Below are positions 54,265-62,708 of a stretch of DNA of 64,000 bases, piece after piece. Below the pieces are notes generated by a model, which was not told the origin of the DNA, searched no databases, and worked only from the letters and a program-made list of their open reading frames with translations. This DNA comes from Haloglomus salinum. GTDB lineage: Archaea; Halobacteriota; Halobacteria; Halobacteriales; Haloarculaceae. The DNA lies in NCBI RefSeq assembly GCF_024298825.1, contig NZ_CP101153.1:3596001-3660000 (forward strand). The letters are read 5' to 3'. Each line of letters starts with the position of its first letter. The first letter of the stretch is position 1. The position numbers and the translations under genes were made by a program.

Positions 54265-54268
54265 TTTC

Positions 54269-54290
54269 TGTATAGCGACATAGAGTTTAC
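54269..54290 (-). repeat. near-copy A of a 22-24 nt element
   Basis: Read on the minus strand it is GTAAACTCTATGTCGCTATA plus CA. An inverted near-copy on the plus strand at 58002-58025 begins GTAAACTGCATATCGCTATA. The first 20 positions match at 17, and copy B has two extra bases. The copies enclose the glycosyltransferase, DUF7124-like, DUF5805 and recombinase genes. Confidence 0.5.
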
Positions 54291-54368
54291 GAGTTGGAAA
54301 CGGGACGCCACGATAGCCACGGTCTGGGTAAGAATATGACACTTCTGGTGCTGGCGATCCGAGAGAGG

Positions 54369-55109
54369 CTACCGGAAGCGCTCCTCGAGCGAGACCTTCA
54401 GGATGGACTTGAGTATCTCGGCGCCGCCCTGGATCGGGTCGAGCTTCGTCTCCCCCGCCCGCTCGGCGTACGTGATGGGCTCCTCGCGGACCTCGTACCC
54501 GCGCATCAGCGGTCGGATGAGGAGTTCCGCAGACAGTCCGGTGTTCTCCGTCCACTCGATCTTCTCGATGACCTCCCGGCGGTACGCACGCATCCCCGTG
54601 GTCGTATCGTGGACCCGCTCACCCATCAGGATGGATGCGAGCGCGGCGAACGAGGCGTTCCCGAAGCGGTTGAACGCCGGCATGGCGTCGGCCCCGTAGT
54701 AGAGGCGGTCGCCGGAGACGACGTCGTAGCCCTCGTTGACGAAGTCGAGGAACTCCGGAAGCGCGTCCATCGGATAGGTGTCGTCGCAGTCCGTCGTCAC
54801 CACGACCGGTCTCGAGGCTGTCAGCAGTGCCTCACGGACGGCTACGCCGTACCCCTGTGGCTCCTGCTCGACGACCGTCGCGCCGTGCTCACGGGCGATC
54901 TCGGGCGTCCTGTCGCTGGAGCCGTCCACGCAGACGACCTCGGCGCGCCCATCAGTCACACGGCCGATATCGTCCAGCACCGTGCCGATGGCTGCCTCCT
55001 CGTTGTACGTCCCCATCACGACGCTGAGGTCGTCGAAGGTGAATTGCTCCGTCTCGTCCGCCGCGGCCACGGACTCGTCTGCCGACCTGTCGGCCTGCTG
55101 CTGGCTCAT
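54369..55109 (-). CDS. GT2-family glycosyltransferase, 246 aa
   Basis: A dolichyl-phosphate-sugar-synthase-like enzyme: LSVVMGTYNEEAAIGTVLDD at the start, VVCVDGSSDRTPEIA, the metal-binding aspartates in VVTTDCDDTYPMD, and the acceptor loop RVHDTTTGMRAYRREV. It would transfer a hexose from a nucleotide sugar to a polyprenyl phosphate for surface glycosylation. No membrane helices are present in 246 residues. The ATG at 55109 (MSQQQADRS) is used. Confidence 0.92.
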   Translation of the reverse strand: MSQQQADRSADESVAAADETEQFTFDDLSVVMGTYNEEAAIGTVLDDIGRVTDGRAEVVCVDGSSDRTPEIAREHGATVVEQEPQGYGVAVREALLTASRPVVVTTDCDDTYPMDALPEFLDFVNEGYDVVSGDRLYYGADAMPAFNRFGNASFAALASILMGERVHDTTTGMRAYRREVIEKIEWTENTGLSAELLIRPLMRGYEVREEPITYAERAGETKLDPIQGGAEILKSILKVSLEERFR

Positions 55110-55667
55110 ACGTCCGCCTTCGTGAGCGCCCACTTGAGAGTTTAGGTTTGCCAAAAACGACGGCCGGTCGAGATTCGCTCCAGAACTCGGCCGTTTCCGA
55201 GTGTAGCAGCCGCTACCATACGAACGGAGCTGAAGAACCAGAAATCAGGAGATTTCGTAGCTTACCGCAGGTCGGCCGCGCCGGGTTCGATCTCCTCGCG
55301 GTGTCGGTCGGCCTCACTGCAGGCTGTCTCGGGTGGGCGCTCGAATCGCTGTCGCTGTCGCTCTCCCCCGTCCGTTCGGGTCGTGTGGGTCGTCGGGTTG
55401 TTCATGTACGGGACCATCGGAGCCGTGTCGTTGGAGTCGTCCATCGGTATCTGGTGAGTTCGTGAGTGCGTTCGCGCGTCGATGCCGCTGTCGTGGCCTC
55501 GCGCGGAGCGCGAGGAGGCCGGGGGAGAATCAGTTGCGTACGTGTACAGCGAGCATCGGTCTTCACTCTCCCATCGGGGGCATCCATCATAAACGTTCAT
55601 GTCGTAACAACGGTTGCCATCGATGTCGGTCGCTACGCTTACGAGCGTCCGCTCCCCTCGTTCGCCC
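55110..55667. other. 558-bp region with one doubtful small gene and a GC-rich hairpin
   Basis: Besides the tentative minus-strand frame at 55262-55444, the main structure is CCTCGCGC-GGA-GCGCGAGG (55497-55515), a perfect 8-bp stem with a three-base loop. A TATA-like CATCATAAACG sits at 55585-55595. Other frames have no haloarchaeal amino-acid bias. Confidence 0.6.
55262..55444 (-). CDS. possible 60-aa acidic small protein
   Basis: ATG at 55444 opens a frame starting MDDSNDTAPMVPYMNN with third positions mostly G or C and many Asp/Glu/Arg, ending in TAA. A single Cys is present (PETACSEAD). No TATA box or ribosome-binding site is clear, and the family is not recognised. It could be a chance frame. 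Confidence 0.35.
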   Translation of the reverse strand: MDDSNDTAPMVPYMNNPTTHTTRTDGGERQRQRFERPPETACSEADRHREEIEPGAADLR

Positions 55668-56069
55668 GTGGCGACCGGACTGACGCTCGCGTTCGACCTG
55701 GAGGCGCTCAGAGCGTTCTCTGAGCCCGCTGTGGCGTTCGAGGACGCGCGGCGCTGGAGTGAGAACCTCGGTATCGTCTCGGACCAGCCGCCGTACGTTC
55801 TGACCAAGTTCACCCGCGAACACGCCCTCCGGAACGATTTCCCACCCGAGCCTGCCCCCGCCGTGGAGACGCTCGACCACATGCGCACGCACCACGACAC
55901 CGACCGGTACGTGTACGTCGTGCCCGACGACGTGACAACGACGCCGGACGGATGGGAACGCCTCCCGGTCTCCGAGGCCGCGGAGCGAGCCGACTGGGAA
56001 CTGGCACCCGACGACTCGGTGGATGTGGCGGAACCAGCCATCGAGGACGAGGACTCGGACTGGCCCTGA
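55668..56069 (+). CDS. DUF7124-like protein, 133 aa
   Basis: The sequence GLTLAFDLEALRAFSEP...EDARRWSENLGIVSD followed by YVYVVPDD and WERLPVSEAAERADWELA resembles a conserved haloarchaeal family (DUF7124, from memory) that has a HAD-like or Rossmann-like strand order. Function unknown. The GTG at 55668 matches the usual family N-terminus. A TATA-like box at about 55590 instead points to an ATG at 55623, which would add 15 residues. Both are possible. Confidence 0.75.
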   Translation: MATGLTLAFDLEALRAFSEPAVAFEDARRWSENLGIVSDQPPYVLTKFTREHALRNDFPPEPAPAVETLDHMRTHHDTDRYVYVVPDDVTTTPDGWERLPVSEAAERADWELAPDDSVDVAEPAIEDEDSDWP

Positions 56070-56266
56070 CGGCCCGGGTGTGGGACTGGCGGTCCGGAGT
56101 GTCTCTTTCCGCTGGTGGACTTCGAGCAATTCGGCTCCACAGGCCGCCCCATTACACCACCACGACCAGGGGCCGCCCGTCGCCCCGAACAATCCTGAGT
56201 TCGCCCACCGATATCGGAGCTAGATGAGGCACCCACCTCTCGCGGAGTCTCATCGGGACCGATTTG

Positions 56267-56389
56267 TTATCGTCTAATGTGATATGTGGAAAGGCGCACC
56301 TGTGGGCTGGGCAGTCAGTTATCGTCGAATAAGTGGGCAGACCACCCCGATTCACACCATCATGTTCGGTGATAACTGCCCTTATCGTC
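56267..56389. repeat. direct and inverted repeats before the DUF5805-recombinase pair
   Basis: TTATCGTC occurs three times (56267, 56319 and 56382). CAGTTATC (56316-56323) and GATAACTG (56371-56378) form a perfect 8-bp inverted pair. ATAAGTGGGCAG and CTGCCCTTAT nearly mirror each other inside it. The rest of 56070-56433 shows no gene. The arrangement could be a recombinase site, an operator or a structured leader. Confidence 0.55.
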
Positions 56390-56433
56390 GTGTCTGACGC
56401 AGATTGAAGTAGCGCCCGTTCGAGGGGGAGACC

Positions 56434-56913
56434 ATGAGTACGGACGGGTCGGAGACCGAACGCGTCTCGGTCAGCACCTACATCCCGGCCTACCAGCGCG
56501 CCACCTGGGAGGCCGAGGCCGAGTCGATGGGCGTGAGCCGGAGCGAGTACGTTCGACTGATGGTGCAGGCGGGCCGTCGGAGCTTCGAACTGGGAGATAC
56601 CGACGATAGCAGTCCTCCCCCTGACACTGACGACCGTTCGAGCGAACACACCGCCGGCGGCTCCGATGCGGTTACCAGACACAACTCCGAGAAGACCCGT
56701 TCCTCCCCCTCCGACCCCGGGGATGACGGCCTCGAAGACCGTGTCCTCGACCTCCTCGATTCGGACTCGTATCTCGGCTGGGACGAACTGGTCGCCGGGT
56801 TGACCGACGACCTGGAGGACCGACTCGAGGAGTCCCTCGACTCGCTCCAGTCCGCGGGCCGGGTCCGACACAGTGGCCGGCACGGTGGGTACACGGTGGT
56901 CGCCGATGAGTGA
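56434..56913 (+). CDS. DUF5805 protein, 159 aa
   Basis: The N-terminal 45 residues (RVSVSTYIPAYQRATWEAEA, MGVSRSEYVRLMVQAGRR) look like a ribbon-helix-helix DNA-binding domain. A long polar linker follows. The C-terminal 60 residues (LEDRVLDLLDSDSYLGWDELV...LQSAGRVRHSGRHGGYTVV) form a winged-helix-like end. The family (DUF5805) is regularly placed before a tyrosine recombinase in haloarchaea. The recombinase start overlaps its end by 8 bp (ATGAGTGA). Confidence 0.88.
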   Translation: MSTDGSETERVSVSTYIPAYQRATWEAEAESMGVSRSEYVRLMVQAGRRSFELGDTDDSSPPPDTDDRSSEHTAGGSDAVTRHNSEKTRSSPSDPGDDGLEDRVLDLLDSDSYLGWDELVAGLTDDLEDRLEESLDSLQSAGRVRHSGRHGGYTVVADE

Positions 56914-57952
56914 GGCCCGCGCCGGGGAGACCGGTGCGGTCGAGGACCCGGTCGCGTACTTCCTGGAGGACCTCACCTACCACGGCAAGACCGAACGGAC
57001 CCGGGACGCCTACGAGCGCGTGCTGCGCTCGGCCGAGACGTTCATGGAGGGCCGCCGGACCACCCTCGCCGACGCCACGCGCCGGGACTGCATGGCCTGG
57101 GTCCACCGGCTCCGCGGGGAGTACGCCGACAGCACGGTCGCCTCCTACGCCTCCTACCTCCACCGGTTCTACGGGTACATGGTCGAGGTCGGCACGTTCG
57201 ACCGGAACCCGATGGCGCTGGTCACCGACGAGATGGACGAGACCATCGATACGGACCCTGCACGCCGGGAGATCGACCTGCCCCGGATGCGCGCGTTCGT
57301 CGCGGACCTCGACCACCCACTCGAACAGGCCGTCGTCGTCACGCTCCTGAAGACCGGGATGCGCGTCGGTGAGCTCTGCAACCTCGACATCCGGGACTGC
57401 TCGCTCACCGACGAGGAGGTCCGGGAGGCGTACGATATCGCTCCACGCGGAGGGCTCGACGGCCGCCCGGACTCCATCTACGTGGCCAGTGACCCGGCTC
57501 GCGGGGAGCCGTACAACGGCGAGGAGCGGACCGCCTCGAACAAGCGCAAACGCGACACCGTCGTCCCTGTCGATGACGAACTGGCCGCTGCCCTGAAACG
57601 CTGGCTCGCCGTCCGCCCGGACGCGAGGTCGGACGCGGAACCCCTGTTCTGCAGCACGAAGGACGAGTGGGGCGCCCGCCTCACGCCGAAGATGGCCCGG
57701 TCGTTCGTCACCAACCACGCCCGCGAGGCGGGCTGGTACCGCTCGGGTGGCGGCGCCGAGGAGAACGTCACGCCCCACTACTTCCGGCACTTCTTCACCA
57801 CGCATCTCCGGGACCGAACCGGTGACAGGGGCGTCGTGAAGTACCTCCGCGGCGACGTGGCCCAGGACGTCATCGACACCTACACCCACAACTGGGGCGA
57901 CCGCGTCCGGGAGGTCTACGAGGCGAACATCTACTCGCTCGGGACGAAATAG
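56906..57952 (+). CDS. tyrosine recombinase/integrase (XerC/D-like), 348 aa
   Basis: The N-terminal SAM-like core-binding domain (about 1-110; TRDAYERVLRSAETFM, YASYLHRFYGYMVE) is followed by a catalytic domain. Arg I is in LLKTGMRVGELCNLD, Lys probably in SNKRKRDTVVPV, HxxR in PHYFRHFFTTH, and the nucleophilic Tyr in DVIDTYTHNWG. All catalytic residues are present, so it is likely active. No tRNA or att duplication is seen next to it, so a resident recombinase is as likely as a mobile-element integrase. It is coupled to the DUF5805 gene. Confidence 0.93.
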   Translation: MSEARAGETGAVEDPVAYFLEDLTYHGKTERTRDAYERVLRSAETFMEGRRTTLADATRRDCMAWVHRLRGEYADSTVASYASYLHRFYGYMVEVGTFDRNPMALVTDEMDETIDTDPARREIDLPRMRAFVADLDHPLEQAVVVTLLKTGMRVGELCNLDIRDCSLTDEEVREAYDIAPRGGLDGRPDSIYVASDPARGEPYNGEERTASNKRKRDTVVPVDDELAAALKRWLAVRPDARSDAEPLFCSTKDEWGARLTPKMARSFVTNHAREAGWYRSGGGAEENVTPHYFRHFFTTHLRDRTGDRGVVKYLRGDVAQDVIDTYTHNWGDRVREVYEANIYSLGTK

Positions 57953-58001
57953 TGCGGTACTTCGATAGCTCTCGGCAGGTGGACTGTCGTCGACACGACC
58001 C

Positions 58002-58025
58002 GTAAACTGCATATCGCTATATACA
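58002..58025 (+). repeat. near-copy B of the element at 54269-54290
   Basis: GTAAACTGCATATCGCTATA followed by TACA, about 50 nt after the recombinase stop. See copy A. As it contains CTATATAC it could also act as a TATA element for a transcript towards 58050-58140. Confidence 0.5.
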
Positions 58026-58140
58026 ATCTCCGGTGGCTCGCATCCGATTCCCGTGTCGCGAACACGACGGAATACGGGCCTGAGGGCCCCTGTGAGTCGG
58101 ATTCGGGTATCGGGCGGAGCGACTGGCGCGGCCGCGAGCG
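58026..58140 (+). other. structured intergenic stretch, possible small RNA
   Basis: GGGCC-TGAG-GGCCC (58076-58089) is a short perfect hairpin. It is preceded by a looser mirrored block (GATTCCCGTGTCG/CACGACGGAAT) at about 58047-58074. It lies behind a CTATATAC TATA-like sequence. No frame has coding character. A small RNA is only one possibility. Confidence 0.25.
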
Positions 58141-62545: not shown

Positions 62546-62708
62546 TGGGGCCCACGGAACGCCCAGATGACGTATCTATGGGACGTTCTCGTCTCGAAGG
62601 GGACTCGTCATCCGGGAATTTGCGGCTGCCGCATCGACCCGTGAATCCGAGGCCCGACACGTAAACCGTATGGCCCGATATCGAAGTCCGGGCCGGGACG
62701 GGTCGGCG

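Follow-up and report, generated by a model that had tools for sequence, protein, structure and literature searches.

The stretch of DNA analysed here, below called the window, comprises 64,000 nucleotides of the haloarchaeon Haloglomus salinum (family Haloarculaceae; contig NZ_CP101153.1, positions 3,596,001 to 3,660,000 of the forward strand). It contains a pair of short, inverted DNA sites which point outwards from a block of four genes, encoding a family-2 glycosyltransferase, a DUF7124 protein, a DUF5805 protein and a tyrosine recombinase. The original prediction, made from the letters of the window, had placed inverted near-copies of an element around a glycosyltransferase and a tyrosine recombinase. 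Both genes are indeed there (the recombinase by its Phage_integrase domain), and the copies are an exact pair in the expected places: the 20-mer GTAAACTNNATNTCGCTATA occurs without mismatch at 54271-54290 on the minus strand and at 58002-58021 on the plus strand. These are its sole matches in the window at up to three mismatches, and none of 100 shuffles matched. The element itself is longer than originally described, about 43 bp. The distal site, with its extent taken from the family profile, spans 54265 to 54307 (minus strand, exact match, 45.3 bits) and points left; it is flanked by the 3' end of the glycosyltransferase gene on one side and by the 5' end of cbiX on the other. The proximal site spans 57985 to 58027 (plus strand, exact match, 46.5 bits) and points right, 50 bp beyond the stop codon of the recombinase gene. 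The 4.19-Mb genome has no further copy of GTAAACTNNATNTCGCTATA at up to two mismatches, and neither has the reversed pattern used as a control. A relaxed 25-base pattern with up to three mismatches gave 14 matches in the genome compared to 2 for its reversed control, and thus weaker relatives of the site are present.

The recombinase gene (56906 to 57952, plus strand; Phage_integrase E-value 7.1e-17) encodes an Xer-type tyrosine recombinase. It has the integrase catalytic domain of the superfamily, and XerA (5hxy, 4a8e) and XerD (1a0p) are among its relatives of solved structure. Residues R142, H280, R283 and Y315, to which we assigned catalytic roles by eye, were invariant in 18 sequences; judged in the same way, there is an apparent change at the usual His/Trp position. 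The recombinase was found in 131 of 146 genomes of the family, in all 96 of high quality among them, and in all 116 genomes that represented the class Halobacteria, as the single match in 127 of the 131 and 109 of the 116. The DUF5805 gene (56434 to 56913, plus strand; E-value 3.4e-27) overlaps the start of the recombinase gene and was its constant operon neighbour, in 93 of 94 family loci. The AlphaFold2 model of the protein (predicted local distance difference test score, pLDDT, 69.8; predicted template modelling score, pTM, 0.34) has an N-terminus resembling ribbon-helix-helix proteins and a C-terminus resembling a winged helix. Foldseek matches to the model were weak (best E-value 0.72), and we regard DUF5805 with modest confidence as a two-domain DNA-binding-like protein. 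A relationship of the winged helix to FtsK gamma was considered and given no weight, FtsK gamma entries appearing only at E-values of about 3. As a separate observation, positions 3-104 of the recombinase profile (56939-57937 of the window; SAM-like domain) match residues 6-109 of PDB chain 9i5v_14, a chain of 401 residues labelled as ribosome-associated translation inhibitor RaiA (E-value 1.4e-14).

The site follows the recombinase throughout the class. A strict form of the pattern (at most two mismatches) was present in 120 of the 146 family genomes, with outward pairs in several of them among the matches listed. Sites were scored with a matrix derived from 57 sites of loci L001-L052; these loci, and genomes that recur in later sets, are not independent tests. 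Thresholds were 15 bits for family and named loci, 13 for other families and 12 for rio2 loci. All 94 family loci had a site on the same strand just past the recombinase stop codon, within 400 bp in 89, overlapping the stop codon in four and at 548 bp in one, and none of them had a site above 20 bits on the opposite strand at this place. The upstream site on the opposite strand was found in 88 of the 94, and the reversed sequence of these loci gave 19 matches above 15 bits in 1.37 Mb. Twenty loci from other families gave the 3' site in all cases and the upstream site in 18. With 71 long named loci, which partly repeat genomes already counted (e.g. L285 and G047), the numbers were 70 and 68, while matches of the other orientation numbered 3 and 3, and reversed sequence gave 16. 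The DUF5805 and recombinase operon is thus enclosed by two inverted, outward-facing sites in nearly all loci examined. Some Halorubrum loci, L308, L313 and L325 among them, have a second site of the same direction which lies beyond the usual distal site, upstream of the stop codon of the recombinase gene by about 5.7-6.0 kb.

The conserved element consists of YGTY at positions -17 to -14, ACT at -4 to -2 and then RTAAAYYRYATRYCGCTATAYMRAAT. The proximal (n=93) and distal (n=86) sites have profiles that are nearly equal, and within a genome the two sites vary together at columns -3 and 13 (z 4.3 for either column), which suggests that probably one protein reads both. The two sites of one genome are nevertheless seldom alike in their presumed centre, positions 7-13: they are identical there in 2 of 85 genomes (1.6 expected), differ on average at 2.5 positions, and match no better than sites taken from different genomes. 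Two such sites therefore look like poor recombination partners for each other. We also considered a palindrome between possible recombinase-binding arms, which was not persuasive, as the best symmetry lies elsewhere, and a leader RNA or riboswitch at either site, for which no Rfam family was found (the sole match, with an E-value of 0.82, reached 20.2 bits where the gathering score is 46.5). The RNA folding z-scores were -1.98 to the right of the pair and 0.32 to the left.

The orientation of the operon relative to its neighbours was compared among the 88 of 94 family loci with both sites and among 93 of 100 loci of the class. Family pairs sharing both flanks had the same orientation in 108 cases and a flipped one in 7, six of which involve one genome, G076, inverted relative to its congener G075. 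When a single flank above 300 bits was considered, 601 family pairs were of the same orientation only and 66 flipped only. Across the class, 681 syntenic pairs were of the same and 619 of flipped orientation (90 and 15, respectively, with both flanks). Of the 93 class loci, 87 fall into a single component, which divides by sign into 55 and 32 loci of opposite orientation, with 9 of 1265 edges inconsistent. Between loci of opposite state 1325 of 1451 flank matches swap both side and strand, and between loci of equal state 2580 of 2757 keep both; the states were derived from the same flank matches as these counts. On a recombinase tree made with a quick method, at least nine changes of orientation are needed, four of them forced by well-supported branches, compared to a mean of 26 for shuffled states. 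As the gene map of one pair signed as a flip, L299/L364, shows a partial rearrangement, the changes may number eight or fewer.

Gene-by-gene maps were drawn for six pairs of loci, that one included. Both flanks are swapped in L270/L274, L279/L362, L112/L127 and L268/L363, and one flank in L338/L351. During evolution the operon has thus changed direction between its flanking genes on several occasions. In L279/L362, the best-mapped pair, the two loci have the operon in opposite directions and share a neighbour gene at about 95 and about 80 bp from a site, which places one breakpoint within about 100 bp of the site. Most other breakpoints could be narrowed down just to 0.6-3.2 kb on one side or both, so that the inversions are likely, but not proven, to have arisen by exact recombination at the site.

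Inversion of the 3.7-kb block had been suggested originally, and on the evolutionary scale the suggestion is supported for the operon. The same arrangement, inverted sites beside a recombinase gene and a segment known in nature in both orientations, could also be that of a phase-variable inverton, with the block flipping often within a culture to switch genes. A freely flipping switch does not agree with the data: within-genus pairs with shared flanks had the same orientation in 229 cases and were flipped in 4, all six pairs in the genus of the window had the same orientation, and the centres of the two sites differ in 83 of 85 genomes. Because orientation is stable within genera and the centres are unlike, we set a routine switch aside and consider an inverton most improbable.

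Sites are also found on plasmids, next to a tyrosine recombinase only distantly related to that of the chromosome. The plasmid recombinase was matched in 269 records; eight plasmid records were examined among these, and each has one site above 20 bits upstream of the recombinase gene. In five the site lies between this gene and the parA operon. A transposase takes the place of parA in the other three (L228, L229 and L233), and the site is still upstream of the recombinase, separated from it in L233 by two small open reading frames. Counted by hand, 32 of the 34 contigs of 12 multi-contig genomes (2-4 contigs each) had a relaxed match and 2 had none, with 116 matches altogether compared to 6 for the reversed pattern. 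If contigs are taken as replicons, the site is thus spread over replicons in the manner of dif or res. The frequent position beside parA and the near rule of one or more sites per replicon would also suit a parS-like partition site bound by a partner of ParA. We consider this improbable, since the site keeps its place before the recombinase where parA has been replaced and its chromosomal anchor is the recombinase rather than parA; we also know of no parS layout with outward pairs of this kind.

The recombinase operon is not the only unit enclosed by such sites. Outward pairs closely bracket rio2 (L151:3078-3986 and L167-L226) in most of 60 family loci, of which 58 have an opposite-strand 5' site and 55 a 3' site; controls gave 1 and 2 sites in the wrong orientation and 20 matches in 0.78 Mb of reversed sequence. 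The outer edge of the 5' site lies 77-78 bp before the rio2 start codon in 44 of the 58 loci and 76-80 bp before it in 52; in 24 loci a TATA-like box could be made out by eye just beyond the site, ahead of the start codon. Further pairs or single sites, some of them weak, lie by an alpha/beta hydrolase gene, hemC, a glycerate-kinase-like gene and an alcohol dehydrogenase gene; in the window's genome a weak outward pair encloses hemC and its neighbour (G000:C1:1281946-1284036). In one locus, L223, seven sites surround rio2 in strictly alternating orientation, which recalls alternating pdif modules.

These additional copies bear on the suggestion, made at the outset, that the element may be a shared promoter. 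If its TATA box is sought in the site, the core does terminate in CTATA and is AT-rich within GC-rich genomes. However, about half of the copies lie 3' of genes and the sites read away from the unit they bracket, a TATA-like box that belongs to rio2 itself separates the site from the start codon, and the site has extra upstream boxes at -17 and -4. A promoter is therefore unsupported and in our judgement hardly credible. Many copies lying all in front of genes had been named as an outcome that would speak against inversion; the extra copies were found to bracket genes on both sides.

Rio2 is better suited to the main rival explanation, a boundary or regulatory element, in which a DNA-binding protein, perhaps DUF5805, would sit at both ends of selected transcription units so as to insulate or regulate them, and recombination would be incidental. 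The near-constant distance of the 5' site from the start codon, just upstream of a TATA-like box, would fit this role, as would the regular 3' site. Central bases 9-10 of the site are moreover nearly invariant, which is unusual for a spacer at which recombination takes place. The orientation of rio2 is also kept: of 1770 pairs of loci, 1087 have no flank in common and 682 have one in the same orientation, and of the 683 syntenic pairs one is flipped, on one side only. We therefore rejected rio2 as an invertible module, and as it has the sites and yet does not invert, the boundary explanation stays alive. Against it stand the recombinase as the constant chromosomal neighbour, the plasmid copies upstream of a recombinase, the recurrent operon inversions, whose breakpoints lie at or close to the sites, and the lack of an obvious regulon among the bracketed genes. 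On the whole we judge it rather unlikely.

The explanation to which we give a slight preference over all others together, as judged from the sequences, is that the site may be the recognition site of a haloarchaeal Xer-type recombination system, the main task of which would resemble that of dif. That the sites are recognised by recombinases is suggested by their association with two distantly related tyrosine recombinases, their presence on nearly every contig and the repeated inversion of the operon. The stable orientation and unlike centres further suggest reactions between identical copies, as at dif. The core, usually single-copy tyrosine recombinase would bind the sites, with DUF5805 possibly as its accessory factor, and identical copies of one site would be recombined on sister or dimeric chromosomes and plasmids. 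Recombination within a pair would be rare, because its two sites usually differ in the centre, and the rare events would be the evolutionary inversions. It is possible, as a more tentative extension, that Halobacteria have an Xer/dif-like system of their own in which DUF5805 is an FtsK-independent accessory factor, the inverted pairs of the class-wide site make fixed "modules" of the recombinase operon, rio2 and other core genes, with a private spacer for each site, and single sites resolve plasmid multimers.

Several observations weigh against a dif-like task, besides the invariant central bases. The rio2 pairs are not explained by it, and rio2 fails to invert despite bracketing sites similar to those of the operon. 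A dif site is usually single per chromosome, whereas 4-19 relaxed matches per genome were found in 60 genomes. The site profile does not resolve into two 11-bp arms and a 6-bp spacer; the best placement of Xer arms needs a spacer of 9 bp, compared to 6 in dif. The likeness to Xer arms is suggestive only, being equalled by 29 of 2000 column-permuted profiles and scored the same by the reverse complement. The recombinase of the window matches the archaeal XerA, XerC and XerD models with E-values of 1.7e-31 to 9.9e-25, in each case under the equivalog cut-off (109.7 bits for XerA, NF040815, with a cut-off of 220). No protein exceeded the archaeal XerA cut-off in 24 family genomes, but three of these hold another protein, distinct from the core recombinase, at 202-210 bits (G144:C2:1018497, G082:C1:453235 and G009:C25:191929), and in these three a second XerA-like enzyme could thus be the resolvase.

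The other features of the locus are less constant. The glycosyltransferase gene (54369 to 55109, minus strand) lies inside the pair in the window, and a close homologue was inside in 12 of 94 loci, outside in 3 (L112, L127 and L130) and not found in the remainder, so it is not a constant part of the block. The DUF7124 gene (55614 to 56069, plus strand) is inside the pair in the genus of the window and is present in L033-L035; over the 94 loci it lay inside the pair in 6 and outside it in 5. A weaker third site (62661 to 62685, plus strand, 26.4 bits) lies downstream of the pair, and copies of the site also occur 5.3 kb past the recombinase in L035/L285 and 3.8 kb past it in L034/L286.

The closest known systems share some of these properties. 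The archaeal XerA/dif systems of Thermococcales and Sulfolobales, in the parts of PMC2958812 used here, also combine a recombinase of the Xer type with a short site that recurs. The predicted dif of Sulfolobales is close to xerA, with two copies at one place in S. solfataricus, and has a short conserved stretch on one side only. Unlike in these systems, the present site occurs in outward inverted pairs that bracket a gene and several times per chromosome, the spacer would be 9 bp instead of 6, and the protein is under the XerA equivalog cut-off. In the pdif modules of Acinetobacter plasmids, as presented in the portion of PMC13141974 consulted, genes likewise lie between inverse Xer-type sites with an intrinsic polarity, and inversion between pdif sites is documented. 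Such an inverse pair around a gene unit is seen here with both the recombinase operon and rio2. The inversions between pdif sites use 6-bp spacers that are identical or nearly so, and the modules move between plasmids, whereas the units described here are core chromosomal genes, the centres are identical in 2 of 85 pairs (positions 7-13) and inversion of rio2 on both flanks was not seen. Tyrosine-recombinase invertons, as far as the accounts drawn on describe them, have the recombinase gene by inverted sites and a segment found in both orientations; the present case differs from them by a stable orientation within genera and by the lack of identity between the two sites.

Among the results listed from the open-licence literature, we found no description of a haloarchaeal dif, of a site like GTAAACTNNATNTCGCTATA, or of core genes that retain an inverted pair of sites around them throughout a class. 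According to the part of a Haloferax review from 2020 seen here (PMC7776575), 4 of 12 xerC/D-like genes have been deleted with viability kept, and whether they have a role in termination is still to be determined. For the resolution of dimers of haloarchaeal chromosomes and plasmids, a single core recombinase, the DUF5805 protein of its operon and a defined site on chromosome and plasmids can now be named as candidates, which makes the question directly testable. The site pair described here is thereby a candidate for the chromosome- and plasmid-resolution site of haloarchaea.

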